Of a stretch of DNA of 64,000 bases, positions 9,405-63,800 are shown one piece after another; within the stretch, counting starts at the first letter, position 1; each line of letters opens with the position of its first letter. Location: positions 1-64,000 of the forward strand of contig NZ_JAVDDV010000009.1 of NCBI RefSeq assembly GCF_030848565.1. Direction: 5' to 3'. Position numbers and translations under genes: made by a program. Source of the stretch: Natronolimnohabitans sp. A-GB9. Its GTDB lineage: Archaea; Halobacteriota; Halobacteria; Halobacteriales; Natrialbaceae. The notes beneath the pieces were generated by a model. It was not told where the DNA came from. It saw only the letters and a program-made list of their open reading frames with translations, and did no database searches.

Positions 9405-10070
9405 ATGCGCGAGCAACGACAACCACGGACGGACCGCGGCCAGGCTTACACCCTCGAGGGGTTCGTCTCGGCGATGATCGTCCTGCTGGCGGTCCTGTTT
9501 GCGATGCAGGCGGTCGTCATCACGCCGACGACCGGCGGGCTGGCGGATCGAACGACACAAGCCCAGGTAGAACAAGAGGGCCAAGACGCGCTGGTAATCA
9601 GTGCGACGGCGGAGGACGGCGATCTGTCGGAACTCGTCCGCTACTGGGACGAGGAGGAGGGTGAGTTCTATAATGCGAGTGAGAGCCACGGCGACTTCTA
9701 CTACGACGCGTCGAACGACACGGAGTTCTACGACAATTTCGTCCTCGGAGAGACCCTCTCAGACCGGTTCACCGAGCGCGGGTTGAGCTACAACGTCGAA
9801 CTCGTCTATCAGGACGACAGCGGCGAGTTCGACTCCGAGTACCTCGTCTATCAGGGTGAATCCGAGGCCGTGACGGCGAGTTACATGGTGACTCTATACG
9901 AGTCAGACACCGTGACAGCACCCAACGGCGACGAGGGGGAGGAACAGACGCTTCGACAGGCCCACTGTGATGAAGATGAAAATAACGAGCATTGCTATCC
10001 GATCCCACCAGCGACCGACGACACCAGCGAGATCTACAACGTCGTGGAGGTGCGTATCGCAGTATGGTAA
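9405..10070 (+). CDS. Pilin-like protein 2 of the pilus operon
   Basis: A 221-residue protein starting with a charged N terminus, then DRGQAYTLEGFVSAMIVLLA, one hydrophobic helix with a Glu five residues into it, as in type IV pilins. The exported part is acidic, with aromatic-rich stretches (ESHGDFYYDASNDTEFYDNF) and two Cys near the C terminus. The gene begins four bases after its upstream neighbour and overlaps the next gene by seven bases, so it is translated as part of the operon. From memory it may be DUF7288. Function is inferred from context. Confidence 0.77.
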   Translation: MREQRQPRTDRGQAYTLEGFVSAMIVLLAVLFAMQAVVITPTTGGLADRTTQAQVEQEGQDALVISATAEDGDLSELVRYWDEEEGEFYNASESHGDFYYDASNDTEFYDNFVLGETLSDRFTERGLSYNVELVYQDDSGEFDSEYLVYQGESEAVTASYMVTLYESDTVTAPNGDEGEEQTLRQAHCDEDENNEHCYPIPPATDDTSEIYNVVEVRIAVW

Positions 10071-10846
10071 CCGATAGGACTCGAGGTCGACGCTCCGACG
10101 ACCGGTCGGCCGACGATCGACCTGACAGAGGCCAGGTCATCCTCATCGGTGCGATCGCACTCGCGTTCATCATCCTCGGCGTCGTCGTCGTCTTCAACGG
10201 CGTCGTCTACACCGAGACGCTGTCCTCAGGTGAGACGGGACAGAGTGCGAGCAGCGCGGAGACGACCGAACTCGAGGTCAGACAGGGGATCGCCTGTTTG
10301 CTCGACGGGGAAACCGGAGATGACGATCTCGAAGAGACGTATACTGGACTGTATCAGAATGCGACGGCACATTCCCAGCCAGCAGCGGTCGACATCGAGG
10401 TCGAGGGTAGCGACCGAGTCACGATCACGTACGATACCACCGACCTCAGCTACGAACGAACGGTAGAGATCAGTGCCGAGTGTACAGAGACTGATGAGAG
10501 CGATGAGGGCAACGAGAGCAATGAGGGTGATGGGGGCGACGAGAGCGATGAGGGTGACACTAAAGAGATGACTATCAATACATTTGAAATTACGCCTGAA
10601 GATAATGGCGACCATTCTGTGGAATGGGATATTAGCGGCGACGAGATATCGACCGCAACTCTCACTATTACCTACACACCGCATCAAGGGAACGACGATA
10701 CAGAATCACAGTCAATAGATATAACTGAAGACCATTCTGGAGACCATACATTCAGCTTAAATCCGAATGACGACGTGCAAATCGTCGAAATAGTTGTCAC
10801 AGATGAAAATGGGCGTACAGAGTCTGATGAGTGGCCAGAAGAGTAG
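10064..10846 (+). CDS. Pilin-like protein 3, with AT-rich variable C-terminal module
   Basis: A 260-residue protein. The N terminus ends PDRGQVILIGAIALAFIILG, a single membrane or pilin-type helix. Residues about 145-165 are coded by 18-base tandem repeats (10496-10558) giving ESDEGN/ESNEGD/ESDEGD. The following ~95 residues, with alternating beta-type sequence (STATLTITYTPHQG, VQIVEIVVTDENGRT), resemble an extracellular beta-sandwich and are encoded by DNA much richer in A and T than the rest of the operon. This suggests that the C-terminal module was acquired or is under different selection. The ATG at 10064 overlaps the end of the preceding gene. From memory, DUF7261. Confidence 0.75.
   Translation: MVTDRTRGRRSDDRSADDRPDRGQVILIGAIALAFIILGVVVVFNGVVYTETLSSGETGQSASSAETTELEVRQGIACLLDGETGDDDLEETYTGLYQNATAHSQPAAVDIEVEGSDRVTITYDTTDLSYERTVEISAECTETDESDEGNESNEGDGGDESDEGDTKEMTINTFEITPEDNGDHSVEWDISGDEISTATLTITYTPHQGNDDTESQSIDITEDHSGDHTFSLNPNDDVQIVEIVVTDENGRTESDEWPEE
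10496..10558 (+). repeat. 18-base tandem repeat inside pilin-like protein 3
   Basis: Three units resembling GAGAGCGATGAGGGTGAC, with a 9-base half unit between the second and third. They encode an acidic hinge between the N-terminal helix domain and the AT-rich C-terminal module. Confidence 0.8.
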
Positions 10847-50270: not shown

Positions 50271-51116
50271 TCAGTTTCTATCGGGCATCGTCGAGTGACG
50301 CGCGGTCCCCTTCATGTCGGCGCGATCGGACGGGGGTGGCGCCATCGTCGAATGGCGTGTCGGTCCGCCCGACGCCCCCTGATCGCCGGAACCGAGATCG
50401 GTCTCGAGGAGTCCGTCTTCGTCGTCTTCCGTTTCGCTCTCAGCATCGTCGTCTCCGACGGAGCTGGCACTCGCCTCCTGGAGACGCTGCTGGAGCCCCT
50501 CGAGGTCGTCACCGGCGTCGGCGAACGTCGACTCCACCGTCGATCGGAGCTGCTCGCCGAGGTCGTCGCTGCTCCCTTCGTCCCCGTTTCCGTCGCTTTC
50601 GTCTTCCGCCTCCGATTCGGACTCGGAGTCCCCGTCGTCCGCGAGGAGGTCGTCGAGCCCGCTGGCCTCGCTTGCGGTCTCGGCGACGGACTCGATCGCC
50701 GCTCGAGTGTCGCTGGTGTCGCTTTCGTCGCCGTCTTCGTCGGCCGCGTCGGCTCCGTCCGAACCGATCGAGTCACGTAATCCACCGACGGCGCTCTCGA
50801 GTTCCGCCTCCTCGTCCCGGTCGGCGAGATCCGAGAGCGTCAGCAGTCGACGCAACTCCTCGACCTGTTCGGGGTCGCCCTGTGCGATTGCCGCCGGGAT
50901 CGAGTCCGGCTCGCTGCCGTCAGGTAACTCGTCCAGGCCGACCGCCTCGAGCAGTGCGTCCGGTTCCGTCTCCTCGAGGAGCTCGTCCGCCCGCGCCGCG
51001 GTCTCGAGGAGGTCGGACTCGCCGTCGGCGTCCTCGAGCAGCGATCCGCTGGCGGTCTCTGCGTCGTGGAGGATCTCGTGGACTCGCTCGTGGAGCTCCT
51101 GATTTGCGTCGTTCAT
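50271..51116 (-). CDS. Acidic protein 4 of the acidic cluster
   Basis: A 281-residue, highly acidic protein. The N-terminal half is helical with leucine-rich segments (NQELHERVHEILHDAETASG, PEQVEELRRLLTLSDLADRD). The middle holds TASEASGLDDLLADDGDSES, a motif shared with the next protein upstream. The end contains a repeated TRHSTMAPPP/TARHSTMPDRN. No domain is recognised. It is last in a row of four acidic genes and 58 bases beyond the short palindrome at 50212. Confidence 0.7.
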   Translation of the reverse strand: MNDANQELHERVHEILHDAETASGSLLEDADGESDLLETAARADELLEETEPDALLEAVGLDELPDGSEPDSIPAAIAQGDPEQVEELRRLLTLSDLADRDEEAELESAVGGLRDSIGSDGADAADEDGDESDTSDTRAAIESVAETASEASGLDDLLADDGDSESESEAEDESDGNGDEGSSDDLGEQLRSTVESTFADAGDDLEGLQQRLQEASASSVGDDDAESETEDDEDGLLETDLGSGDQGASGGPTRHSTMAPPPSDRADMKGTARHSTMPDRN

Positions 51117-51232
51117 GGCATGGGGTGGATCGTGTCGTCGTTCGATCGCCGGGACGCCTGTTCCTGTCGCCGGCTGTTGCCGGCTTGAGTGTGACCCTCG
51201 TGCGCCTGAAGCGTGATTTTACGGTCGCTTTA

Positions 51233-52204
51233 TCAGTCGGCCTCGGCCTCCGCTTCCTCGCCGTCGTCTGCGTCCGGCTCGTCGTCGCCCTCGTCGGTCA
51301 CGGCTGCGATGATCTCCTCGGTCATCTCCTCGCGGCTGAGGTTGGCTTTCACGCCGACGTCTTTGGCCACCGACTGGAGGTCCTCGTAGGACATCACGCC
51401 GAGGAAGTCCTCGAGGGTCTCCGCCCGGAGGTCCGCGATATCGCCGACCGACGGTTCGGATTCGTCGTCGGCCTCGGTTTCGGTCCCTTCGTCGGTGTCG
51501 TCCGTCTCCTCGGCTGCTTCGGTCTCCTCGTCGGTAGATTCTTCCGCACCGTCCTCGACGCCTTCGTCCGTCGCTTCGTCTTCGACTTCGTCGTCGGTCT
51601 CCGCTGTTTCATCGTCCTCTTCTACTTCAGCCGCCTCGGCTTCCGCTTCGTCCTCCTCGCCTTCGGCGTCGTCCGTGAGCAACTCGTCGAGTCCGCTGGT
51701 CTCGCTCGCGCTCTCGGCAGTGTTGCTGACGCCTTCCGCGACCGACTCGGCCGTCTCTCGAGCGCTCTCGGTCGCGCTTTCGGACTCTTCGGCGTCGGTC
51801 TCGGGTTCGGTCTCGGCGTCTTCCTCGTCGGTATCGGTCTCGAGCAGTCCTTCGAGGTTACTCCCCTCGGTAGCGCTTCGAGCCAGCGACTGGACCGAAT
51901 CTTTCGCGTCGCTGTCCTCGATCGTCTCACGGAGTGCGTCTCGAATCGCCGTCTTGAGGTCCGCCTGGAGTTCGTTTCGGTTCTTGTTCTCCTCGATTCC
52001 CTGTGCGATTGTCTCGTGGACCGCACGGCCGATCGCGGCGCCGAGTTCGCGGCCGACTCGCTCGCCGAACTCGCGACCGACCGCAGCGCCGATATCGCCG
52101 CCGTCGATGCTGTCTTCGATGTTACCATCGCCGAAGAGATCGGCGACGTCGAGCTGGTTGTTGACCTCCTGGGTGACCAGTTCCGTGAGTCCGCTTTCAC
52201 TCAT
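51233..52204 (-). CDS. Acidic protein 3, glycine-zipper helix and SAP/Rho-N-like end
   Basis: A 323-residue protein. Residues about 35-60 form a Gly-x3-Gly helix (GGDIGAAVGREFGERVGREL), closely resembling the segment in the gene at 52259. Then come helices (QADLKTAIRDALRETIED), TAESASETSGLDELLTDDAE shared with the downstream protein, a long Glu/Asp/Ala/Thr stretch and a C-terminal helix pair (MSYEDLQSVAKDVGVKANLS) with the look of a SAP or Rho-N domain, which usually bind nucleic acid. Start ATG 52204. Family unknown to me. Confidence 0.7.
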   Translation of the reverse strand: MSESGLTELVTQEVNNQLDVADLFGDGNIEDSIDGGDIGAAVGREFGERVGRELGAAIGRAVHETIAQGIEENKNRNELQADLKTAIRDALRETIEDSDAKDSVQSLARSATEGSNLEGLLETDTDEEDAETEPETDAEESESATESARETAESVAEGVSNTAESASETSGLDELLTDDAEGEEDEAEAEAAEVEEDDETAETDDEVEDEATDEGVEDGAEESTDEETEAAEETDDTDEGTETEADDESEPSVGDIADLRAETLEDFLGVMSYEDLQSVAKDVGVKANLSREEMTEEIIAAVTDEGDDEPDADDGEEAEAEAD

Positions 52205-52258
52205 CGCGATCACCTCGAGTAGTGATCGGTGAGCTGGTTGGGTACGTTCGACGCATGA

Positions 52259-52798
52259 TTACTCCTCCTCGGATTCGCCGTCCGATTCGTCCTCGGCAGT
52301 CGATTCGGACTCGTCCGTCTCGTCACCGTCGTCGGCCTCGGACTCGCCTCCCGAGTCGTCTTCCGTTTCGTCCGTCTCCTCCGCTTCGGATTCCTCGTCG
52401 GCGTCGGTCTCCTCGTCTTCCACCTGTTCGTCCGGTTCGGCCGCTTCGTCTGTCGACTCGTCTGCCTCGTCCATGTCCTCCGTTTCGTCTTCCGGTTCTT
52501 CGACCGCTTCAGCGTCCGGTTCGTCGGGTGCGAGCAGTTCGTCGACGACCATCTCGCCGATCGTTCGGCCGATGGACTCGCCGACCTTTCGGCCAACGAG
52601 CGCGCCGATCTGTCCACCGAGGACCTCCCCGAGTGGCTGGTCGTCGTCGATCTCGTCTTCCCACTGCGTGCCCTCGACTAACTCGTCGATGTTGACATTC
52701 TCGGTTACCTTCTCGTAATCGATCCGCTGTGTTACGGTGCCGGCGTCCTCTCCTCCGTGTTCGGTCTCGGTTTCGGTCTCGCTTTGGCTCTCACTCAT
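52259..52798 (-). CDS. Acidic protein 2 with glycine-zipper helix
   Basis: A 179-residue protein. The ordered part (residues 20-90) contains TQRIDYEKVTENVNIDELVE and the glycine zipper GGQIGALVGRKVGESIGRTI; the rest is almost only Glu, Asp, Ser and Thr. The zipper pattern I-G-A-x-V-G-R-x-x-G-E-x-x-G-R is shared with the next gene, so the two are probably paralogs or partners packing helix to helix. It starts two bases before the end of the upstream gene region and is surely co-transcribed with it. Confidence 0.7.
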   Translation of the reverse strand: MSESQSETETETEHGGEDAGTVTQRIDYEKVTENVNIDELVEGTQWEDEIDDDQPLGEVLGGQIGALVGRKVGESIGRTIGEMVVDELLAPDEPDAEAVEEPEDETEDMDEADESTDEAAEPDEQVEDEETDADEESEAEETDETEDDSGGESEADDGDETDESESTAEDESDGESEEE

Positions 52799-52800
52799 AG

Positions 52801-54147
52801 TTAGGCGGCCTCCTGTGTCGCGTCGGGTTGCTCGCCTGTCTCGCCCTGTTCGGTCTCCGGCTCGAGTTGCTCGAGCAGCTGTCTGATCACCTGGCTGACG
52901 ACCGTCGCCACGAGGTCCTCGATCGGAAGTCCGGGAATGAGACCGACCAACCGTTCTTTCAGCCAGCTCGTGGCTCTGGCGATCGGACCGGGTGATTCGG
53001 AGTCAGTCTCCTCGTCAGCGTCGCCCTCGGTCTCCGCCTCATCGACGTCGGCTGCTTCCTCTTCGTCCGGAGCCGCCTCCTCGGCACCGCCGAAGAGTCC
53101 ACGGAGCCACTCGATCGGCTTCCCGAGGACGTCTTTCAGCCGGCCGACGAGCGAGGCGATCAGGCCACCGGACTCGGCCTCGTCCTCGGCTTCGCCTTCG
53201 GCCTCCTCACCGCCGATGCCCAACAACTGACCGAGCAGCTCCCTGGGCTTGCTCATCAGATCACTGAGGAGCTCTTTCGGCCGCTCGAGGAGCCCGCTGA
53301 GGAGCTCTTTTGCCTTCCCCGGGAGCTGTTTGAGCAGTTCCACTGGCTTGCTCAGCAGCGATTTGACCTTGTCCAGCATCGCACCGGGGCCGTCCAGCAG
53401 CCCCGTCACCGCGGACAGGAGGTTTCCAAGCAGGTTGTTCTCGCCTGGCCGCGCCGACACGTCGAGCTGGACCGGGTTCAGGTTGACCTCGAGGCCGAGC
53501 AGATCCAGAAAGAGCCCGTCTATATCGAGATGCAAGACTCCGGAGGCGTCGTCACCCTCGTAAACGTCTTCGGCGTCCGCGGCGTGGCCCTCCGCGCGGT
53601 CGTCCTCGACGAGATCACCCGTCTCGTCCCTGCTCTCTTCCGCTTCGGGCTCGTCCTCGTCTTCTTCGACTTCGGCTGCTTCTTCGTCCTCTTCTTCGAC
53701 TTCGGCTGCTTCTTCGTCCTCTTCTTCGACTTCGGCTGCTTCAGTCTCGTCCTCGAGTTCGTCGGCCGTTTCGTCCGACTCCGTTTCGGCCTCGTCCTCG
53801 GGGGCTTCGTCTTCGACCGCCTCGTCTTCGGCTTCTTCGAGTTCGTCGTCCGCGGCTTCGGACTCCGCCGTCGCTTCGTCTTCCTCGGCGTCTTTCTCGA
53901 GGCCGTCGGCTTCGGTTTCGTCCTCGAGTTCTCCTTCGGGTGCCGTTTCTTCGGTCTCCTCGTCGCCCTCGTCCGCAGCGTCGTCCGCCTCGTCTTCGTC
54001 GGCCATCTCCGCCTGGCCGCCGTCGGGCAGCACCCTGCGGTTCGGTCCCTCCGCGCGCTCACCGTCGTGATGATGGTCCGAGGGGTCCCCGACTGCCGTG
54101 GGGTCCGAACGCTCCTCGAGACCGTCGTCGTCCAGGCCCGGTGTCAT
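52801..54147 (-). CDS. Acidic protein 1 with 11-residue amphipathic repeats
   Basis: A 448-residue protein, first of the four acidic genes. Residues 1-205 are extremely acidic, with a repeated EEDEEAAEVE unit. A ~55-residue domain follows (GVLHLDIDGLFLDLLGLEVN, VQLDVSARPGENNLLGNLLS), which I have seen in bacterial secreted proteins as a conserved unnamed unit. Next is an 11-residue amphipathic repeat (KELLSGLLERP, KELLSDLMSKP, RELLGQLLGIG). After an acidic spacer there are more amphipathic helices (LVGRLKDVLGKPIEWLRGLF, IEDLVATVVSQVIRQLLEQL). ATG 54147 is used; ATG 54006 is the alternative. Confidence 0.72.
   Translation of the reverse strand: MTPGLDDDGLEERSDPTAVGDPSDHHHDGERAEGPNRRVLPDGGQAEMADEDEADDAADEGDEETEETAPEGELEDETEADGLEKDAEEDEATAESEAADDELEEAEDEAVEDEAPEDEAETESDETADELEDETEAAEVEEEDEEAAEVEEEDEEAAEVEEDEDEPEAEESRDETGDLVEDDRAEGHAADAEDVYEGDDASGVLHLDIDGLFLDLLGLEVNLNPVQLDVSARPGENNLLGNLLSAVTGLLDGPGAMLDKVKSLLSKPVELLKQLPGKAKELLSGLLERPKELLSDLMSKPRELLGQLLGIGGEEAEGEAEDEAESGGLIASLVGRLKDVLGKPIEWLRGLFGGAEEAAPDEEEAADVDEAETEGDADEETDSESPGPIARATSWLKERLVGLIPGLPIEDLVATVVSQVIRQLLEQLEPETEQGETGEQPDATQEAA
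53651..53740 (-). repeat. 30-base tandem repeat within acidic protein 1
   Basis: Three consecutive 30-base units, the last two identical and the first slightly diverged, ending CTTCGGCTGCT on the plus strand. They encode the repeated acidic decamer on the minus strand. Confidence 0.85.
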
Positions 54148-54290: not shown

Positions 54291-55628
54291 TTAGCGATCC
54301 GACTCGAGATCGGTGACGTGGAGACGATACGCACCGCGGGTCACGCCGTCGTCGTGGTAGGCGACGGGCTCTTCGATCGCTGCTACGGTCCCGTCGTCGA
54401 TTGCGGCAGCGGTCGCGACTCCCTCGAGGCATTCGCTGACCGTCGGGCCCGACTCGCGGTCGAAGAAGCGAACGGCGTGGGTGTCCGGGTCGCGGACGCG
54501 GAAGTTCTGGGCACAGGGTGTGACGACCGTCGCGTCGTCGGTCGCGAGACCGTGGACGAAGCCCCGAACCGCGTCGTCCCACACCGGCTTGCCGTCGGCG
54601 TCGAACGTCGCGATGCGGTGTTCGTTCGGATGTCGGTTCTCGGTCTCGCGGCTCTCGACCGCGTAGGTGTTGCCGGTCACGAACGTCACGCGGCCGTCCT
54701 CGGCGGCCACGTGGTTCGGATAGGCATAAAGCGTCTCACCGTCGATCTCGGTTTCGACCGCCAGGTCGACGTGCCACCGCTCGGCACCGCCAGGGCCGAG
54801 CAGGTAGCCACGCTTGTCGCCGTGGCTCGCGACCGCGACCGTCTCGCCGTCGATTGCCACGTCGCCGACGCGGCGGTCGCCTTCCGTTCCGGGATCCCAG
54901 GTCCACTCGAGGTCGCCACCGTCAGCGGTTTCACCGCCGCCGTTTCGCGACGACGCAATCGTCGCGCTTCCGGCCTCGAGCACGACGAGACCGGTGTCGT
55001 GGTCGCCCATACAGCGGTTGTAGCCGACCGCGAGCCGTTCGCCGTCGGCGTCTATGTCCAAGGCGATCGGCGACGCGTCGGTCTCGTAGCGCCAGCGAAC
55101 GGTCCCGTCGGGCTCGAACGCGTAGACGGTACTGTACCACTGGCGCGTCTCGCCGTCGCGTTCGTATCGACGTGCAGCCGCGTAGCAGGTCTCACCGTGG
55201 GTCTCGAGGGCGACCACGTACGGCAGATAGAAGATCGAGTCCTCGGTGGGCTCGCCGAGGTCGTCGACCGTCTCGTAACACCAGCGCTGCTCGCCCGTCG
55301 TGGCGTCGTAGGCCGCGATCGTGCCCGTTTCGCCACGACCGGCGACGACGATCGCGTCCGGCTCGCCGCCGTCACTCCCGGCGTCGAGCGTCGCGATTCC
55401 GATCGCGTGGTCCGGGTGTGTCGCCGTCCAACGGGTCTCGAGAGAGTCGACCTCGCGGGCGGTGACGGTCCCGTCCCACTCGCCAGTAACGACGAGGTTG
55501 CCGCCTGCAGTAACGTGGACTGCCGAGCGGGTCCACATGTGCCGGCTACGGGCGACGTCGATCTCGCCGAGCGGGGCTGACCGGCGTTCGAATCCGCGTT
55601 CTCGGTCGACGTCAGCAGCGTCGCTCAT
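54291..55628 (-). CDS. PQQ-like beta-propeller protein of the cobalamin operon
   Basis: A 445-residue protein with repeated beta-propeller blades of the PQQ/BamB type, such as HVTAGGNLVVTGEWDGTVTA, TIAAYDATTGEQRWCYETVD, VYAFEPDGTVRWRYETDASP and IATFDADGKPVWDDAVRG. No signal peptide is visible, so it acts in the cytoplasm. It is the last gene of the cobalamin operon, two bases from the DUF3209 gene. It could be a scaffold or metal-delivery partner; the sequence gives no catalytic motif. The alternative start at 55634 adds two residues. Confidence 0.82.
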   Translation of the reverse strand: MSDAADVDRERGFERRSAPLGEIDVARSRHMWTRSAVHVTAGGNLVVTGEWDGTVTAREVDSLETRWTATHPDHAIGIATLDAGSDGGEPDAIVVAGRGETGTIAAYDATTGEQRWCYETVDDLGEPTEDSIFYLPYVVALETHGETCYAAARRYERDGETRQWYSTVYAFEPDGTVRWRYETDASPIALDIDADGERLAVGYNRCMGDHDTGLVVLEAGSATIASSRNGGGETADGGDLEWTWDPGTEGDRRVGDVAIDGETVAVASHGDKRGYLLGPGGAERWHVDLAVETEIDGETLYAYPNHVAAEDGRVTFVTGNTYAVESRETENRHPNEHRIATFDADGKPVWDDAVRGFVHGLATDDATVVTPCAQNFRVRDPDTHAVRFFDRESGPTVSECLEGVATAAAIDDGTVAAIEEPVAYHDDGVTRGAYRLHVTDLESDR

Positions 55629-55630
55629 CC

Positions 55631-56002
55631 TCACTCCTCGACCGGGAACGTTTCGTGGAGGGTGTCGTGGGCCTCGCCGAGCCCGTCGACGATGCTCCCG
55701 CCCTGGACGCGAAGCCGCTCGATCGCTCGCTCGGCGTTGCGGACCTCGAGCAGTCGACCCCGCGTGTAATCGTATTCGGGGTCGTCCGCGTCCATCGCGG
55801 CGACTTCCTCCTCTAGGTCGACCAATGTGGCGTCGAGGTGTCGCTCGAGTTCCGTCAGCGTCTCGGCCTCGACGAGCCCCTCGATCGGTCCATCGAGATG
55901 GCCCTCGAGTTCTTTCCGTGCGTGTTCGCGAGTGCTCTCGTCCCCGACGCCGAGGACGTTCATCAGTCCGAGTCGTAGTGCTTCGATTTCGTGACAGCTC
56001 AT
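55631..56002 (-). CDS. DUF3209 family protein
   Basis: A 123-residue, mainly helical acidic protein starting MSCHEIEALRLGLMNVLGVG. The family occurs in archaeal and bacterial cobalamin clusters next to cbiX, as here, but no activity is established. The gene lies 57 bases after cbiX and just before the beta-propeller gene. Confidence 0.85.
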   Translation of the reverse strand: MSCHEIEALRLGLMNVLGVGDESTREHARKELEGHLDGPIEGLVEAETLTELERHLDATLVDLEEEVAAMDADDPEYDYTRGRLLEVRNAERAIERLRVQGGSIVDGLGEAHDTLHETFPVEE

Positions 56003-56059
56003 GTCTGTTTGTGTTCGTTTTCGAGATGGGGTGGTAGTCGCTGGTTGGCGAGCGATACG

Positions 56060-57286
56060 TCAGAGGGTCTGATCGACGAGATCGCTAACGATGCGGTCCC
56101 GATCGAGGTGGTCGGAGACGATTCGTTCGGCATCCGACGCTTCGACGTCGCCGTACCAGATCCCGTCCGGATAGACGGCGACCATCGGTCCGTCGCCACA
56201 GCGTCCGAGACAGGACGACCGCGTGATGCGGGCGTCACAGTGCGCAGAATCTCTGGCTTCCTGGCGGAGTCGCTCGAGCACCGCCGGCGACCCCATGTCG
56301 GCACAGGTCCGGTTCGTACAGACCGCAACGTGTTTTGCCGGCGCGTCGTGAGTGTGGGGCTCGTCGTCGACGTTCTCGCGGTCCGCGTGGGCCTCCTGGT
56401 GGGCGAGCGCACGGAGCATGGCCCGCGCGCCGCCGACGTCCTCCTCGTAGCCCTCGAGGTCGACTTTGTACTTGCAGGTGTCACAGGACATCTCGACGCT
56501 ATCGCTGCGCGCTTCCTGCCAGCGGTCGGCGAGGACGTCGAACAGCCGCGAGTCGGTCCCAAGCGGTTCGCCGGCCAGCGCGGAGACGTAGGGATAGTCG
56601 TCGTCGAAGTCGACCGTCCAGTCGCGAACGCGCTGGGTGAGGACGCCGTCGCCGAGCATGTAGGGGAGGACGACGACCGCGTCGGGCCGGTGTTTCGAGA
56701 GTCCGTGGAGCGTCTCCTCGAGGGTCGGCTCGGTGACGCCGATAAACGAGGCGTCGACGCGATCGAACGCCCGCCCCTCGTAGAGTAACCGTGCGAGTTT
56801 GTGGACGTCGGCGTTTGCGTCCGGATCGCTCGAGCCCCGTCCACAGAGCACGACGGCGACGTCGTCGTCCGCGCGGTCGACGCCCAGTTCGGCCTCGACC
56901 GCGGCGGCCCGGTCGTCGAGGAGGTCCAAGATTGCGGGATGGATGCCCAGATGGGCACCGTTGTCGATCTCGAGGTCGTGGGTCGCGCGGGCCTGCTCGA
57001 TCGCCAGCGGCACGTCGTTTTTGACGTGGCTCGCGGCGAACAGCGAGCAGTGGACGACCGTCACCCGCGAAACGACCGCCGCGAGTTCGGCAAACGCCTC
57101 CTCGAGCGACGGTTTTGCGAGTTCGAGGAACGCGGCATCGACCGGGATCCCCAGTCGCGACTCGAGGCCGGCGGCCAGTTCCCGAACCTGTTCGTTCGAC
57201 TTCTCGCGACGGGAGCCGTGGCCGATCAGCAGGACGGCTTCGTCGTCGAACGCGGACGTGGAGGCGGTGTCATCGGGTGTGTGCAT
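56060..57286 (-). CDS. cbiX: Sirohydrochlorin cobaltochelatase CbiX fused to a [2Fe-2S] domain
   Basis: A 408-residue protein. LLIGHGSRREKSNEQVREL holds the metal-binding His of chelatase domain 1; domain 2 begins VVLCGRGSSDPDANADVHK. After about residue 265, CDTCKYK is followed by a ferredoxin-like thioredoxin-fold domain with cysteines in CTNRTC and SSCLGRCGDGP, the pattern for a [2Fe-2S] cluster. It inserts cobalt in the early (anaerobic-type) route. The fusion is known in haloarchaea. It directly precedes DUF3209. Confidence 0.93.
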   Translation of the reverse strand: MHTPDDTASTSAFDDEAVLLIGHGSRREKSNEQVRELAAGLESRLGIPVDAAFLELAKPSLEEAFAELAAVVSRVTVVHCSLFAASHVKNDVPLAIEQARATHDLEIDNGAHLGIHPAILDLLDDRAAAVEAELGVDRADDDVAVVLCGRGSSDPDANADVHKLARLLYEGRAFDRVDASFIGVTEPTLEETLHGLSKHRPDAVVVLPYMLGDGVLTQRVRDWTVDFDDDYPYVSALAGEPLGTDSRLFDVLADRWQEARSDSVEMSCDTCKYKVDLEGYEEDVGGARAMLRALAHQEAHADRENVDDEPHTHDAPAKHVAVCTNRTCADMGSPAVLERLRQEARDSAHCDARITRSSCLGRCGDGPMVAVYPDGIWYGDVEASDAERIVSDHLDRDRIVSDLVDQTL

Positions 57287-57301
57287 CGTGATCGTCTCGT
57301 C

Positions 57302-58012
57302 TTACGTGTCGTAGGCGTCGGCCTGTTCGAGGCTCCGCTCGAGTTTTCGGCGCCGACTGGGAGCGAACAGGCCAGTCGCCGTACAGTCCTCGTAGAGCCA
57401 CGTTCCGAACTCGGGGACGACGTCGTCGTCGACGCCGAACCAGTAGCCGCCCGAAGCGGTCTCCGAGAGCTCGCCACAGGGGGCGTCGACGGGACAACCG
57501 GCGATCAACTCCCGTGTCAGTTCGAGCAGCTGCCGGTCGTCGTGGACGAACGAGATCCCGACGGTGCCACTCGAGGACTTGAAGCAGATCGTGCCACAGC
57601 CCTCGAGCAAGCCCCGCAAGAGTTCCTGCTCGTAGCCCGCAAAGGCTTCGAAGCGATAGTTGCCGCGACCGTCGACCGGGAGACCGAGCACGCTGTTGCG
57701 GCCGAGTACCCCCGATTCGTCGCCGCCGATCGAGAGAGTGTACTCGTCTTCGGTCCGCGTGATCGACGTGTCGTGGGCGTAGTCGCGGCTGACCGTCTCC
57801 CGATCGAGATCGCCGCCGGCGACGGCCGCGAGGACTTCCGCCGAGGTCTCGTCTGTGGTCACCACGTCGATGCCGTCGGTGGAGACAGTCCCGCTGCCGG
57901 CGACGTGGCCCCAGAAGTACGCCGTCGCGGGGTGGCCCGCGAGCGGGTCGGCCGGGACGTCGACCTCGACGGATGCCGATCGCTCGTCGCGTGTCGGCTG
58001 TGTGTCGCTCAT
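57302..58012 (-). CDS. LAGLIDADG-fold protein of the cobalamin operon
   Basis: A 236-residue protein annotated elsewhere, from memory, only as a cobalamin biosynthesis protein. I see two LAGLIDADG-like helices: YFWGHVAGSGTV (residues 32-43) and LLRGLLEGCGTI (131-142), each followed by a beta-strand region and a helix with D-x-x-L-L (VHDDRQLLELTRELI). The end (FGTWLYEDCTATGLFAPSRRRKLERSL) matches the family's W-L-Y/R-K-closing segment. The catalytic Asp of each G-D-G is replaced by Ser or Cys. Cleavage activity is therefore unlikely. The gene overlaps the ferredoxin gene by four bases. Confidence 0.72.
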   Translation of the reverse strand: MSDTQPTRDERSASVEVDVPADPLAGHPATAYFWGHVAGSGTVSTDGIDVVTTDETSAEVLAAVAGGDLDRETVSRDYAHDTSITRTEDEYTLSIGGDESGVLGRNSVLGLPVDGRGNYRFEAFAGYEQELLRGLLEGCGTICFKSSSGTVGISFVHDDRQLLELTRELIAGCPVDAPCGELSETASGGYWFGVDDDVVPEFGTWLYEDCTATGLFAPSRRRKLERSLEQADAYDT

Positions 58013-58275
58013 TCGCCGACCTCCTCGACGACGATCGCGTCGGTCGGACAGGCCGCGGCGGCCTGTCTGGCCTCGTCGAGACGGTCGTCGTCGAACGTCG
58101 CGACGACGCGTGTCGCATCGTCGGTGACCTCGCCGTCGCAGTCGTAGACCGGATCCGCGTCCGGATCGATCGTCGCGAGGCCGTCTTCGCCTTCGACGAA
58201 TCTGGGATCGCGGGTCAGACAGGCGAAGATGCCGTCGCAGGCGTCTTTCTCGATAGTGATTTCGTATCGTGGCAT
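58009..58275 (-). CDS. Ferredoxin, probably [3Fe-4S] type
   Basis: An 88-residue ferredoxin. Cys13 and Cys19 form C-x5-C (CDGIFAC), and the closing ACPTDAI carries Cys76; the two middle Cys of a normal CxxCxxC are missing, so a [3Fe-4S] cluster (or a cluster with Cys46) is expected. It is encoded between the second cbiH and the LAGLIDADG-fold gene and probably supplies electrons for a corrin-ring step. Confidence 0.85.
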   Translation of the reverse strand: MPRYEITIEKDACDGIFACLTRDPRFVEGEDGLATIDPDADPVYDCDGEVTDDATRVVATFDDDRLDEARQAAAACPTDAIVVEEVGE

Positions 58276-58288
58276 GGTGGATTCGTGC

Positions 58289-59311
58289 TCAGTAGTCGTA
58301 CTTCGTCTCGTAGCCCCGGGGCGTGACCATCCGGTCGTCCCAGACGTAGGTATCCTCGGTGCCGACGACGATCGTCGTCGTCATGTCGATGATCTCGTGT
58401 TCGCCCAGCTCCTCGAGTTCGCCGAGTTCGGTGATCATCACCTGTTCGTCCTCGCGACCGGCGCCGTGAACGATCCCGACGGGCGTGTCGGGATCGCGGT
58501 GGGCCAGCAAGATCTCACAGCACTTCTGGAAGTTCTCCCGGCGCTTGCGGCTCCAGGGGTTGTAGATCGTAATCGTGAAGTTCTCGCTTGCGACCGCGTG
58601 GAGTCGGGACTCGATCTCGGGCATCGGGACGAGGTGGTCCGACAGCGAGACCGAGACGGTGTCGTTTACGAGCGGAGCGCCGAGTCGTGCCCCACAGGAC
58701 TGGGCCGCCGGCACGCCAGGAACGACTTCGAAGTCGACCATCGACGCCGTCGCGCCCTTGGACTCTAAGATCTCGAGTGCGAGTCCGGCAAGCGCATAGA
58801 CGTTTGGGTCGCCGCTCCCGACGATCGCCACGTCGTTGCCCGCGAGCGCACGATCGATCGACTCCTCGGTGCGGGAGACCTCGCCACACATCGGCGTGTC
58901 GTAGATGTCGTCGGCCTGCTCGGTGATCTCGTCGGGAATCAGTTCGATATACGTCGTGTAGCCGACGAGGTGGTCGGCCTCGAGCAGGGCGTTTTTGGCC
59001 CGTTCGGTCATCCCCTCGGGGTGGCCGGGGCCGAGCCCGACGGCGATCAGCTGCCCGGGTTCGGCGTCGAAGTCGTCGACCGTCGCGCCGACCTCCTGTT
59101 CGTTGCTCGAGTCGTCCGAACTCGAGGCCCCGCAGCTCGATCCCGACGATGAGGAACTGGACGTCGAGGCGCCGCACTTGGAACTCGAGTCGTCCGAACT
59201 CGAGGCACCACCACACTTCGACCCGCTCGAGGCATCGGTTTCGCTGGTGCTCGAGGCGCCACAGTTGGAAGTCGATTCGTCGTCAGCGTCTGCGTCAGTG
59301 TCCGTACTCAT
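58289..59311 (-). CDS. cbiH: Cobalt-precorrin-3 C17-methyltransferase CbiH, with Cys-rich N-terminal repeats
   Basis: A 340-residue tetrapyrrole methylase. GQLIAVGLGPGHPEGMTERA is the SAM-binding loop, with VAIVGSGDPNVYALAGLALE and DFEVVPGVPAAQSCGARLGA. The first ~75 residues form a Ser-rich leader with four CG[AG]S motifs at Cys17, 33, 46 and 60, which is not a part of the CbiH fold. Two CbiH paralogs are adjacent, a usual feature in haloarchaea; which one performs the C17 methylation-ring contraction is unclear. Confidence 0.9.
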   Translation of the reverse strand: MSTDTDADADDESTSNCGASSTSETDASSGSKCGGASSSDDSSSKCGASTSSSSSSGSSCGASSSDDSSNEQEVGATVDDFDAEPGQLIAVGLGPGHPEGMTERAKNALLEADHLVGYTTYIELIPDEITEQADDIYDTPMCGEVSRTEESIDRALAGNDVAIVGSGDPNVYALAGLALEILESKGATASMVDFEVVPGVPAAQSCGARLGAPLVNDTVSVSLSDHLVPMPEIESRLHAVASENFTITIYNPWSRKRRENFQKCCEILLAHRDPDTPVGIVHGAGREDEQVMITELGELEELGEHEIIDMTTTIVVGTEDTYVWDDRMVTPRGYETKYDY

Positions 59312-59330
59312 GGTTGTATCGTGGTATCGG

Positions 59331-60218
59331 TCAGAAATCGTCGACGTCACGCCCGCCGCGGGGCGTGACGAGGTACGTTCGGTCGTCGTTGCTCCAGGTC
59401 TCGGTCTCGTGGTTGCCGATGATCAACGAGGTACCCATTCCCGAGACCTTGTCGTCGTGGTCTGCGGCCTCGCCGAGGGTCGTGACGAACTCGCTTTCGC
59501 CGTTGCGGCCGGCGTCGGCACGACCGGCGTCGTTGACGATCGCCACGAGGGCGTCGTCAGTGCGCTCCTCGCGGACGATCTCGACGGCCTGCTCGTAGTT
59601 GCGCCAGCAGTTGTACAGCACGATCACGAAGTCACTGATCGCGGCCGCGCGCAGTTTCTCCTCGATCTCGTCCCAGCCACGCCACTTGTCCGACAGCGAG
59701 ACGGTACAGAAGTCGTTACACAGCGGCGCGCCGACGTTTGCCGCCCCGCCAAGCGCCGCGGTGAGACCGGGGACGATCTCGATCGGCACGTCCGTGGCGT
59801 CGTCCTCTTCGGCCATCTTGAAGATCAGGTCGGACTTGCCGTACACCGAGGGATCGCCGCCGGAGACGTGAGCGACGTCTCTGCCCTCCCGGACGTGATC
59901 GAACGCCGCGCGGGCGAGTTCGATCTGGCGACCCATCGTCGAACGAACGATCTCCTGTTCGAACCCGTCGTCGCGGGTCGCGATCCCGTCTTCGTCGACG
60001 GCGTCTTCCGGCGGCAGCGTTCCGTCATCGCGCAGGAACTCCTGGTAGAGACTCGAGGCGATGACGACGTCGGCCGACTCGATGACGCGCTTTGCCCTCG
60101 TGGTCATGTGTTCGGGCAGCCCGGGGCCGATGCCGACGACGTAGAGGGTGCCGTGGTCGTCTGGCGTCCCGCCGGCTCCGCTACTCGAGTCTGCAGTGTC
60201 GGATTCGCTTTCGCTCAT
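59331..60218 (-). CDS. cbiH: CbiH-like tetrapyrrole methyltransferase (paralog)
   Basis: A 295-residue enzyme. TLYVVGIGPGLPEHMTTRAK and VAHVSGGDPSVYGKSDLIF are the SAM-binding loops; IEIVPGLTAALGGAANVGAP is the third motif. It is clearly a CbiH/CobJ relative. It overlaps cbiG by four bases, and lies 19 bases before the other cbiH, so both are made from one transcript. Confidence 0.92.
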   Translation of the reverse strand: MSESESDTADSSSGAGGTPDDHGTLYVVGIGPGLPEHMTTRAKRVIESADVVIASSLYQEFLRDDGTLPPEDAVDEDGIATRDDGFEQEIVRSTMGRQIELARAAFDHVREGRDVAHVSGGDPSVYGKSDLIFKMAEEDDATDVPIEIVPGLTAALGGAANVGAPLCNDFCTVSLSDKWRGWDEIEEKLRAAAISDFVIVLYNCWRNYEQAVEIVREERTDDALVAIVNDAGRADAGRNGESEFVTTLGEAADHDDKVSGMGTSLIIGNHETETWSNDDRTYLVTPRGGRDVDDF

Positions 60219-61201
60219 TTGCCGATCGCCACCGTGACTTCGTCCTCGTAGCTGATCTTCTCGAGTACGAGTTCCTGCTCGCGGCCGCCGGCGATCGCCG
60301 ACGCCTCCGAGACACCGGGCCAGCCGATCAGCTCCTTCGATTTCGAGGGCGTCGGCCCCTCGTGGTCGAGCAGCGTCTCCTTGTCGAAGGCGACGACGCC
60401 CAGATCGAGTTCCTGGGCTGCCGCGAGCAGCCCCTCCTCGTCTTCCTTACGCGTCGCGGTGGCGACGAACTCGACGTCCTCGACGCCGTAGTCGGTCCGC
60501 TCGAGGGCTTCGTCCCAGGCCTCGAGGAAGGCCGCGGTGTCGGCACCGGAGACGCTGCCGGTGCCGATGACGACGCCGTCGTCTTTGTTTCGTTTGAGGA
60601 CGGTGACGTCGTCACCTACCAGGACGGCCTTCGGTCCCTCGAGTCGCTCGACGGGGCCGAGGGTGTCGTCCAGCACGGCGAGATTGGTTTTGACCGTCGA
60701 GTCGCCGTTGACGACGTGGGCGTCCATCGCCTTCGCCTTCGACTCGACACCTTGCTTGCCGGCGGCCTCCGAGGCCGTGGTCATCGCCGGGACGGCACCC
60801 ATCGTCGCCAGATCCTGTGCGACCTGGTTGGCGCCATGGTGGCCACCCGTGATCGGGATCGCCCACGTCAGTTCCTCGTCGACGACACAGATCGCAGGAT
60901 CGTCCCACTTGTCGTCCAACAGGTGGGCCGTCTTTCGCATCGCGATCCCCGAGGCCATCAGGCCGATAAAGCAGTCGTACTCGCCCCAGTGGGCCTCGAA
61001 GACGTCGCCGTGGTACTCGAGGATCTCGATCGACTCGTATCGATCCTCGAGTTCGGCTTTGATCTCCTCGGCGGTCTCCATCTTGCGCTCGAAGGAGACG
61101 ATCGCGATCTCCTCGGCGACTTCGCCGTCCGAGTCCGGCGTCGAACAGTGACCGCCGTCCGATCCGTCGTTCGTCTCCGTGTTCTCAGTTTCTGAACTCA
61201 T
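60215..61201 (-). CDS. cbiG: Cobalt-precorrin-5A hydrolase CbiG
   Basis: A 328-residue CbiG. The N-terminal domain (FIGLMASGIAMRKTAHLLDD) and TWAIPITGGHHGANQVAQDL are followed by a C-terminal CobE-like domain (VEFVATATRKEDEEGLLAAA). CbiG opens the ring lactone and releases C20 with acetaldehyde. The first ~25 residues carry one Cys (GGHCSTP). It follows cbiF after a 111-base gap that holds no gene. Confidence 0.94.
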   Translation of the reverse strand: MSSETENTETNDGSDGGHCSTPDSDGEVAEEIAIVSFERKMETAEEIKAELEDRYESIEILEYHGDVFEAHWGEYDCFIGLMASGIAMRKTAHLLDDKWDDPAICVVDEELTWAIPITGGHHGANQVAQDLATMGAVPAMTTASEAAGKQGVESKAKAMDAHVVNGDSTVKTNLAVLDDTLGPVERLEGPKAVLVGDDVTVLKRNKDDGVVIGTGSVSGADTAAFLEAWDEALERTDYGVEDVEFVATATRKEDEEGLLAAAQELDLGVVAFDKETLLDHEGPTPSKSKELIGWPGVSEASAIAGGREQELVLEKISYEDEVTVAIGK

Positions 61202-61312
61202 TGTCGAATCACTGTCGTCACGAATTCGTCCATTTCACGTGCTATCGACCCGTCTCGTCCACCGCGGGGCTGGGGGATTTCACCGTGTTTGCGGTCTCGA
61301 GTCCAAAGCGTC

Positions 61313-62254
61313 TCAGTCATCGCTCGCCTCCGGTTCGCTCGCGTTTTCCGCCGAACTGTCCGAAGAACCCCGGTTCGCCCAGTCGCCGTAGAGATAGGAG
61401 CGCTCGTAGCCCGCGCCGGTCACGGCGTCGCCGATGACGACCAGCGCCGAGGCCCGATAGCCGGCCTCCGCCACTTTATCGGCGATATCGCCGATCGAAC
61501 CGACAATGACGTCTTCGTCCGGCCAGGAGGCGTGGTAGACCACTGCAACTGGCGTCTCGGGATCGTGACCGTCCTCGAGGAGCCGATCCATCGTGTCCCG
61601 AACCGCGTGGGTCCCCAGGTAGATACAGGTCGTCACGTCGCCCATCTCCACGAAGTCGGAGATGTGGTCTTCCTCCTCGCTTAGGGTCTTCCCCTGGGGT
61701 CGAGTGAACGCGACGTGATTGGAGACCTCGTTGAGCGTCAGTTGGGTCCGCAGGGTCGCGCTGGCCGCAAACGCGGAAGTGACACCCGGCACGAAGTAGG
61801 TCGGGACCTCCTCGTGCTCTAGGGCATCCATCTGCTCTTTGGCCGCGCCGTAGATCGCCGGATCGCCGCTGTGAAGGCGGACGACGTTCCGGTCCTCCTC
61901 GTAGGCGTCGCGCATGAGCGGGATCAGCTCCTCTAGGTCCTTCCCGACGGAGTTGACGAGCTCCGCGTGGGCACAGTACTCCTCGAGGAGTTCGCTGTTG
62001 ACCAGCGAGCCCGCATGGACGACGAGATCCGCGTCCTCGAGCAGTTCCTTTCCGGCGACGGTCAACAGTCGCGGGTTGCCGGGACCGGCGCCGACGAAGG
62101 GGATCCCCGCCTGCTCGTCACCGGCGCTGTGCTCGAAGATCCGGTCGTCTAACTCCTCTCGCCGGCGGTCTCCCTGTGCATCGATCGCGTTTTGGGGGTC
62201 GCCGTCGTCTCCAGCTTCGTCTCCGTTGTCGTCCGTCTCGGTCGTGTCCACCAT
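61313..62254 (-). CDS. cbiF: Cobalt-precorrin-4 C11-methyltransferase CbiF
   Basis: A 313-residue tetrapyrrole methylase. IPFVGAGPGNPRLLTVAGKE, VVRLHSGDPAIYGAAKEQMD and TYFVPGVTSAFAASATLRTQ are the expected SAM-site motifs; LADLVVHAGSLVNSELL-type sequence marks the CbiF/CobM group. It methylates C11. Acidic extensions at both ends are haloarchaeal. Start shares one base with the end of cbiL. Confidence 0.94.
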   Translation of the reverse strand: MVDTTETDDNGDEAGDDGDPQNAIDAQGDRRREELDDRIFEHSAGDEQAGIPFVGAGPGNPRLLTVAGKELLEDADLVVHAGSLVNSELLEEYCAHAELVNSVGKDLEELIPLMRDAYEEDRNVVRLHSGDPAIYGAAKEQMDALEHEEVPTYFVPGVTSAFAASATLRTQLTLNEVSNHVAFTRPQGKTLSEEEDHISDFVEMGDVTTCIYLGTHAVRDTMDRLLEDGHDPETPVAVVYHASWPDEDVIVGSIGDIADKVAEAGYRASALVVIGDAVTGAGYERSYLYGDWANRGSSDSSAENASEPEASDD

Positions 62255-63183
62255 TAGTACCAGTGCTCGTTACAGTCGCCGTGTTCACAGCCCTCGGCAC
62301 GCTCGAGGTCGACGAGTTTGCCGTCGACGTCCGAATCCTCCGGTAAGGACCGAAACTCGACACCTCGCTCGCGTTCGGACGATAGTCCGTCTTCCGACAG
62401 TCGCTCCGTGACCGGCGACTCGCCGCCGTCTGCGATCGACTCGCCGCCTGCGGTCGCGTCGTCGGGCTCGGTATCGTCGTCGCTCGAGGTGTCGTCGGTC
62501 GTCGAAAACGCCGCCGTCGCCTGCTCGACCTCGAGGTCTTCCTTCTCGGCGTAGGCGAGGGTGTAGTAGTCGCGGTCGTCGACCGCCGCGGGATCGTCGG
62601 TGACGATCGTCTCGCCCTGCTCCATGAAGAGTCGCCGGCCGTAGGTCACCTCGTAGCCGGACTCGACGAGTCCCTCGTGGGTCGCCGGCGCGTCGGTAAC
62701 CTTAAAGAGGATCATCCGGTCGGGCCCCGTCGGACTGTGGCCGTCGGCAGCCTCGCGAAGCGAGAGCCCCGCGCCGGCCTCGATCTCGACGCCCAGCGCG
62801 GTCGCAAACGCCGTCACGGCGCTGACGCCGGGAACGATCTCGAGGTCGACGTCGGGATGGAACGCGTCGATCGTCCGCCGCAAGTGACCGAACGTCGAGT
62901 AGACGTTCGGATCGCCCAGCGTGACGAAGGCGACGTCGCCCTCGCGGGCGTTGGGCGCGATCTCCGCTGCGGCTTCTTTCCAGGCCGCACGCAGTTTCTC
63001 TTCGTCTCTGGTCATCGGGAAATCGAGGTCCCCGATCTTCGACTCGTCGACGTGTTCTACGGCGACGGACCGGGACAGTCGACCCGGCGAGTAGACCACG
63101 TCACAGTCCTCGAGAAGGCGCTTTCCGCGGACGGTCACCAGATCCGCCTCACCGGGACCGAGCCCGATGCCGTACAGCGTCAT
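62254..63183 (-). CDS. cbiL: Cobalt-precorrin-2 C20-methyltransferase CbiL
   Basis: A 309-residue methylase. LYGIGLGPGEADLVTVRGKR, VAFVTLGDPNVYSTFGHLRR and LEIVPGVSAVTAFATALGV are typical of CbiL/CobI. The fold ends near residue 225, and an acidic Ser/Thr stretch follows. The very end carries CEHGDCNEHWY, a compact Cys/His motif that could bind metal and is not a part of the methylase fold. It overlaps cbiT by four bases. Confidence 0.94.
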   Translation of the reverse strand: MTLYGIGLGPGEADLVTVRGKRLLEDCDVVYSPGRLSRSVAVEHVDESKIGDLDFPMTRDEEKLRAAWKEAAAEIAPNAREGDVAFVTLGDPNVYSTFGHLRRTIDAFHPDVDLEIVPGVSAVTAFATALGVEIEAGAGLSLREAADGHSPTGPDRMILFKVTDAPATHEGLVESGYEVTYGRRLFMEQGETIVTDDPAAVDDRDYYTLAYAEKEDLEVEQATAAFSTTDDTSSDDDTEPDDATAGGESIADGGESPVTERLSEDGLSSERERGVEFRSLPEDSDVDGKLVDLERAEGCEHGDCNEHWY

Positions 63184-63800
63184 TGTGGCTCACCTCCGCA
63201 TCCGTCGGCGGCGACGGTCGTCCCGTCTTCATCACCGTCTGCGTCCGAGTCGGGCGTCGCACTCCCGACCAGCATGTAGACCGGGTTGTCCGAATCGAAA
63301 CTCGTCGCACCGGCGAGTTCGTAGCCGTGGCTCACCTGGAACTGGACGACCTCCTCGAGGAGGTCGCGCTCCCGGAAGGCCTCCGTGGCTCGGCCGGCGA
63401 CCTCGAGTCGGGAGACGTTCATCACGATACGGTCGACCTCGGTCTCGACGGCGTGGTCGAGGACGGCCTCGAAGTTCCGGCTGCCGCCGAGAAAGAGGGC
63501 GTCGGCGTCGGCCGGCAGGCCATCGGGCGCTTCCGCGTTTCGCAACTCGACGTCGGCCTGTACCGTCGCTTCGTTCGCGGCGAGGTTCCGCTCGGTCGTC
63601 TCGAGCCGGCTGGCCTTGCGCTCGACGGCGGTCACCCGTCCGGCTCGCTGTGCGGCTTCGATAGTAACGGCCCCAGTACAGGAGCCGACCTCCGCGAAGT
63701 GGTCGTCGTCCTCGAGTGCCAACTTCGAGCGGACGACGGCCCGGACCTCGGGTTTGGTCGGGCCGGCCTTCGCGTCGTGTGGAAGCGCGATGGGTGGCAT
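63180..63800 (-). CDS. cbiT: Cobalt-precorrin-6B C15-methyltransferase (decarboxylating) CbiT
   Basis: A 206-residue class I methyltransferase. AKAGPTKPEVRAVVRSKLAL begins the family-typical start and HFAEVGSCTGAVTIEAAQRA is the SAM motif, then VTAVERKASRLETTERNLA. It methylates C15 and decarboxylates at C12. Stand-alone CbiT is common in archaea; CbiE is not in this window. First gene of the operon, with ATG 63800 (alternative GTG 63803). Confidence 0.94.
   Translation of the reverse strand: MPPIALPHDAKAGPTKPEVRAVVRSKLALEDDDHFAEVGSCTGAVTIEAAQRAGRVTAVERKASRLETTERNLAANEATVQADVELRNAEAPDGLPADADALFLGGSRNFEAVLDHAVETEVDRIVMNVSRLEVAGRATEAFRERDLLEEVVQFQVSHGYELAGATSFDSDNPVYMLVGSATPDSDADGDEDGTTVAADGCGGEPQ

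Follow-up and report, generated by a model that had tools for sequence, protein, structure and literature searches.

A stretch of 64,000 nucleotides from the haloarchaeon Natronolimnohabitans sp. A-GB9 (contig NZ_JAVDDV010000009.1, positions 1 to 64,000; here termed the window) carries four adjoining genes, A to D, whose open reading frames were confirmed on the minus strand. Gene A (52801..54147) encodes 448 amino acids (aa), in which a conserved N-terminus is followed by a long acidic linker, a conserved core, 11-residue repeats, a second acidic linker and a conserved C-terminal helix; its start at 54147 is backed by relatives beginning MTxGLEDDGSEE. Gene B (52259..52798, 179 aa) encodes a short glycine-zipper domain and then a long acidic tail, gene C (51233..52204, 323 aa) a glycine zipper, an acidic linker and a small C-terminal helical domain, and gene D (50271..51116, 281 aa) a paralogue of the gas-vesicle protein GvpI. 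All four proteins are extremely acidic, as the initial annotation of the window had noted, with aspartate plus glutamate contents of 34, 43, 36 and 31% in A, B, C and D, and a window median of 20%. The stop of A lies 2 bases from the start of B, and 54 and 116 bases separate B from C and C from D; these short distances make an operon plausible. Scans of Pfam and NCBIfam with the whole proteins and with cut-out domains gave no match above threshold. Comparison of sequences and gene neighbourhoods indicates that A to D very probably constitute an accessory module of gas vesicles, of the haloarchaeal type that lacks GvpC, GvpD and GvpE. This assignment follows from the paralogy of D with GvpI, from the presence of A and B/C in or beside gvp operons of several families, and from the occurrence of A only together with GvpA.

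Two parts of D resemble GvpI. The conserved domain (...LLEAVGLDELPDGSEPDSIPAAIAQGDPEQVEELRRLLTL, 50835..51089) is of the LPDAI type and is common to the N-terminal extension of haloarchaeal GvpI, an extension found in most haloarchaea examined. The C-terminal tail (TRHSTMAPPPSDRADMKGTARHSTMPDRN, 50274..50360) bears HSTM/STVP motifs that Halobacterium GvpI (pNRC100 VNG_RS13760) also has at its end; the motif tails compared were ...RHSTMAPPPSDRADMKGTARHSTMPDRN for D and ...AAHSTMPPQKSNAENAVRNSHSTVPK for Halobacterium GvpI. A profile of the module's D proteins matched a GvpI profile, built from a set that included the annotated Halobacterium GvpI, with an hhalign probability of 99.6 (E = 1.7e-23, 121 columns). 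By these similarities, D is a GvpI paralogue. It was not called GvpI itself because the gvpI position of the window genome, between gvpH- and gvpJ-like genes on another contig, is occupied by another GvpI gene (L065:8374-9303) and not by D. A second, distant gene was matched by the D profile in most genomes that contain A. D further differs from GvpI in lying outside the gvp operon of the window genome, in lacking the RIYGRRFE / RLYGQRL end, and in its acidic character, since the GvpI of Halobacterium is basic. In many Natrialbaceae there is an additional orphan GvpI-like gene, remote from the gvp genes and near a pdxS-like gene (L086, L087, L095 and L097; around 9-10 kb), and several of these end in RIYGRRW or RIYARRW.

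The distribution of A was determined from its core (DAEDVYEGDDASGVLHLDIDGLFLDLLGLEVNLNPVQLDVSARPGENNLLGNLLSAVTGLLDG, 53377..53577), a hydrophobic segment that is the sole strongly conserved part of the protein (86% mean column identity). The core and GvpA/J/M, the latter scored by PF00741, were sought in the same 194 haloarchaeal genomes of the class. PF00741 was present in 79 genomes and the core in 66, one of which was discounted as a weak partial match (G070, E = 0.009) in a genome without GvpA. A was found in 65 of the 79 GvpA-positive genomes and in none of the 115 GvpA-negative ones (Fisher P = 4e-38). Outside the window's own family, the corresponding counts were 19/32 and 0/112 (Fisher P = 1e-15). 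All 65 genomes with A thus also encode the shell protein GvpA. In a sample of 247 genomes of the phylum, A was not detected outside the order. The initial annotation had recognised in A a domain of bacterial secreted proteins; a pattern scan of 84,980 genomes, with patterns built from haloarchaeal sequences, returned 63 loci, all archaeal and nearly all under haloarchaeal names. A tblastn search of plasmids with the core gave no match. This negative was not used, as the plasmid collection does hold a relative of A (L159, Haladaptatus halobius), and the BLAST low-complexity filter is a likely cause of the miss. Haladaptatus halobius has three copies of A (L155, L156 and L159), one chromosomal and one on each of two plasmids; one of these plasmids additionally bears a gvp cluster (L105).

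A was scored as linked to gas-vesicle genes if three or more gvp genes lay no further than 8 genes away. A was gvp-linked at 17 loci from several families. The order was gvpF-G-H-[A]-[B/C]-gvpI-J-K-L in Halocatena, gvpA-gvpO-X-[A]-[B] in Halalkalicoccus paucihalophilus, and gvpI-J-K-L-M-[C]-[A] in Halococcus thailandensis. A and B/C were placed between gvpH and gvpI (L073, L074, L138, L144, L147), beyond gvpA-gvpO (L066-L069, L166, L167), adjoining gvpO or gvpL (L070, L071, L063) or after gvpM (L164). At the loci of the first kind, the sole GvpI/D gene is located in the gvp operon. Loci with A and B/C inside a gvp operon usually go with a single GvpI; a module that stands apart is usually accompanied by D, a second GvpI dedicated to it. 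The minimal unit may be A, a glycine-zipper protein and GvpI. In several families, an unassigned small gene of about 111-121 aa with a zinc-ribbon-like CxxC...CxxC pattern lies between gvpO and A or beside A (L066 10458-10796; also L067-L069, L145, L162, L166 and L167).

The position of A and B/C between gvpH and gvpI in clusters of the Halocatena type would also suit a role in assembly. A to D could act early, together with GvpF-M and in the manner of GvpH and GvpI, keeping the hydrophobic GvpA/J/M proteins soluble without being part of the finished vesicle. The paralogy of D with GvpI points the same way, as does the finding that GvpI and GvpH interact with one another and with the remaining accessory Gvp proteins (PMC7688916). 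We consider a purely chaperone function rather unlikely. It leaves the exclusion between A and GvpC, described below, without explanation, though that exclusion may be historical.

The module is conserved as a unit. Of 61 genomes searched with the core of A, comprising that of the window and 60 relatives, 35 contained it. In the first set of neighbourhoods, A-B-C-D were consecutive and on the same strand at every locus at which A was called, with or without cobalamin genes upstream. The exact order on one strand was found at 37 of 46 loci from relatives in one set and at 50 of 63 named loci in the other; departures were mostly cuts at contig ends, or A and B/C embedded in gvp operons. The initial annotation had asked whether the four genes stay together; they do so in varied surroundings, with no pattern of homologues occurring singly. 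Ratios of non-synonymous to synonymous substitution rates were 0.18-0.49 for all four genes in every computable pair, and the module is under purifying selection. One genome that has kept gvpA (G216, L083) retains only an 88-aa N-terminal remnant of A (9932-10198) and has lost the motif tail of D too; its module is in decay. Upstream of A, positions 54291-63800 of the window hold cobalamin-synthesis-like genes, a DUF3209-like gene and a beta-propeller-like gene, a neighbourhood of cobalamin type common to only about half of Natrialbaceae loci. Linkage to cobalamin or UspA genes was ruled out as a functional clue, since the flanks change among relatives while A to D stay together.

Apart from its core, A has two features predicted to be helical: the 11-residue repeats (53209..53388; [KR]-P/x-[KE]-E-L-L..., cationic and amphipathic; moderate confidence, with a predicted local distance difference test score (pLDDT) of about 75-80) and the conserved C-terminal segment (GLIPGLPIEDLVATVVSQVIRQLLEQLEP, 52864..52986). 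The initial annotation had likened the repeats to the lipid-coating helices of synuclein, perilipin and apolipoproteins. The periodicity is real, with an identity of 0.37 at offset 11 that was matched by none of 2000 shuffles. However, it is pronounced at about 20 Natrialbaceae loci, whereas divergent genera and nearly all other families show it weakly or not at all; the repeats are thus specific to certain lineages and do not define the protein. A sequence search of the PDB with A gave no meaningful match. An amphipathic coat on a lipid or membrane surface, unconnected to gas vesicles, would account for the repeats where they occur. We regard it as highly improbable, given that most lineages have no such repeats and that A is confined to GvpA-positive genomes and linked to gvp genes. 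The lipid analogy also lacks support because no lipid- or membrane-related gene is linked to the module. The earlier proposal of one complex on such a surface was nevertheless partly right. The genes form a conserved unit whose products may act as one complex, and although nothing points to lipid, the module probably acts on the surface of a vesicle or on the machinery that assembles it. In view of the paralogy of D with GvpI, the location of A, B and C in gvp clusters of several families and the tracking of GvpA by A, this vesicle is most likely the protein-walled gas vesicle. The earlier remark that no enzyme is involved is likewise upheld.

Proteins B and C share a helix of G-x3-G spacing, as had been noticed from the window alone. 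In B, the zipper runs from G38 to G62 of the aligned stretch (52556..52630), with glycines at spacing 4; in C (52028..52090) it forms part of a predicted 37-residue helix (pLDDT mostly above 90). These glycines are invariant or nearly so in 30 B and 24 C homologues, and the profile of B aligns significantly with that of C (hhalign 97.7%, E = 1.5e-12), identifying the helix, at the level of sequence, as shared by homology. B and C fell below the threshold of the Pfam glycine zipper PF13488 (12.7 bits, E = 0.13; curated cut-off 25). They share the regular G-x3-G spacing with Gly-zipper_Omp and similar Pfam families, but are haloarchaeal, gvp-linked and without an outer-membrane context. A second motif common to two of the proteins, S-G-L-D-[DE]-L-L, does occur in the window at residue 170 of C and residue 152 of D. 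In relatives its relaxed form was found in only 5/32 C and 1/34 D proteins, and it was set aside as a shared signature, being a local oddity. Divergent glycine-zipper/acidic proteins, probably distant relatives of B/C, are encoded in gvp clusters without an adjoining A (L105 8247-8864, L080 6632-7042, L099 7240-8145 and L180), and several of them end in an LSxxELQxLAxxLxDELxQR-like stretch.

The C-terminus of C is predicted to form a three-helix domain (51293..51448, pLDDT 93-96). Its likeness to SAP/Rho_N domains is suggestive only: sequence matches were not significant (Rho_N, E = 0.01-0.13; SAP_new25, E = 0.051), the best Foldseek match was the SAP domain 2rno (probability 0.82, E = 1.7), and a sequence search of the PDB with this end gave only insignificant centrin matches. 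Such a domain could tether an assembly. Together with the long acidic low-complexity segments, the linkers predicted to be disordered and the multivalent glycine zippers, it would fit an acidic, partly disordered scaffold by which the module gathers gas vesicles into clusters or sets their position, and does not stiffen the shell. A clustering role has been reported for GvpU of Bacillus megaterium (PMC11445434), with which the likeness, drawn from the literature, would be one of vesicle-organising role only. Since high acidity is common among haloarchaeal proteins and the close association of the module with GvpC-less operons does not favour clustering in particular, we judge spatial organisation to be possible but unlikely.

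The relation to GvpC was examined in the same genomes. Halo_GVPC (PF05465) lay beside gvpA in 8 genomes, all GvpA-positive and all without A, and PF05465 was absent from the window genome and from all genomes with A. Loci of this type have gvpACNO + DEFGHIJKLM or an arrangement close to it. The gvp cluster of the window genome (L065) consists of gvpA-N-O and F-G-H-I-J-K-L-M, with no gvpC; gvpN was not found in many other GvpC-less clusters (L066-L071, L073, L074, L080, L081, L177-L179 and L181-L183). Strong matches to GvpD were found in only 7 genomes, all among the 8 with gvpA-linked GvpC, and no genome of the sample combined A with either gvpA-linked GvpC or a strong GvpD match. That many haloarchaea have gvp genes but no gvpC, gvpD or gvpE was reported in the 2012 genome paper on Natrialba magadii and in a 2015 review (PMC3403918, PMC4390858); the review lists GvpC-less species as Vac- and leaves the reason open (PMC4390858). 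In a table of a later review, gvpACNO is given for the same species (PMC9501494); the window genome, for its own part, does not bear this out.

The lack of strong GvpD matches in A-containing genomes, with the suggestive SAP/Rho_N-like fold of C, raises the question of whether the module stands in for the regulators GvpD and GvpE, with C binding DNA. This seems very unlikely. The SAP match is not significant, and no recognisable helix-turn-helix or ATPase family was found in the Pfam and NCBIfam scans. One genome (G068) has GvpC and no GvpD, and still no A, so that the exclusion tracks GvpC slightly better than GvpD. GvpD (PF07088) was itself discarded as a regulatory explanation, most of its matches being of a weak P-loop type and only the 7 being strong.

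The mechanism we favour for the gas-vesicle module is a surface or organising role that takes the place of GvpC. For A alone, a surface role like that of GvpC is put forward tentatively, as somewhat less likely than not. A resembles GvpC in being large and acidic, in having repeated amphipathic helical units in some lineages, and in accompanying GvpA where GvpC is absent. It differs from both the Halobacterium type (PF05465) and the cyanobacterial type with 33-residue repeats in sequence, in lacking the Halo_GVPC repeat and C-terminal zinc-finger motif, and in its units, which are of 11 residues and confined to some lineages, whereas those of GvpC are of 33 or 32-40 residues. Cyanobacterial GvpC has been modelled as a helix along the GvpA ribs, with arginine touching GvpA glutamates (PMC9994262), and by analogy the cationic amphipathic helix of A could bind the GvpA shell. 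The hydrophobic core and the cationic amphipathic helices of A would then hold it on the outer face of the shell, or let it bridge shells, while its acidic segments point toward the cytoplasm; A would thereby take over some of what GvpC does elsewhere. B and C would pack by their glycine zippers, with one another or with hydrophobic Gvp proteins, and display long acidic brushes. D, as a GvpI paralogue, would tune assembly or vesicle length, and its likely binding partners would be GvpH, GvpF or GvpL, as suggested by data on GvpI (PMC7688916, PMC4390858).

Several points weigh against these proposals. The Fisher P values for A and GvpA ignore phylogeny. In a tree of GvpF+GvpL, the GvpC-type operons all fall into a single clade (bootstrap 100), so the exclusion between A and GvpC may be a single evolutionary event that says little about replacement of function; some families do contain both the GvpC-type and the GvpC-less type, as does one genus. 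That A replaces GvpC is what we infer, not what we found, and the two have no sequence similarity (hhalign probability 0.24%). Five GvpA-positive genomes have neither A nor GvpC, which indicates that neither is indispensable, and five species of the GvpC-less type have been reported as Vac- (PMC4390858). The module does not lie beside the gvp operon in the window genome or its family. The predicted structure of A is poor (predicted template modelling score 0.26), too weak for a fold search.

A and B/C belong to no known Gvp family that could be tested here. No description of A-C or of a second-GvpI module was found in the open-access literature, some searches of which were narrow; subscription papers and preprints were outside its scope. 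What is new here is a set of candidate accessory proteins for gas vesicles. With less confidence still than for the role of A, the commonest gas-vesicle type in the sample (65 of 79 GvpA-positive genomes) might have a different outer coat or organising layer, made of A, of B and C as its glycine-zipper partners, and of a GvpI copy reserved for it, with the well-studied GvpC/GvpDE vesicle of Halobacterium as a derived minority type. Interest in gas vesicles comes both from their function as buoyancy organelles and from their engineering into ultrasound reporters, and GvpC is the handle by which they are tuned. Four candidate missing genes, conserved under purifying selection, make the question of the GvpC-less haloarchaea directly testable. 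These data suggest that the Halobacterium system is not representative of haloarchaea.

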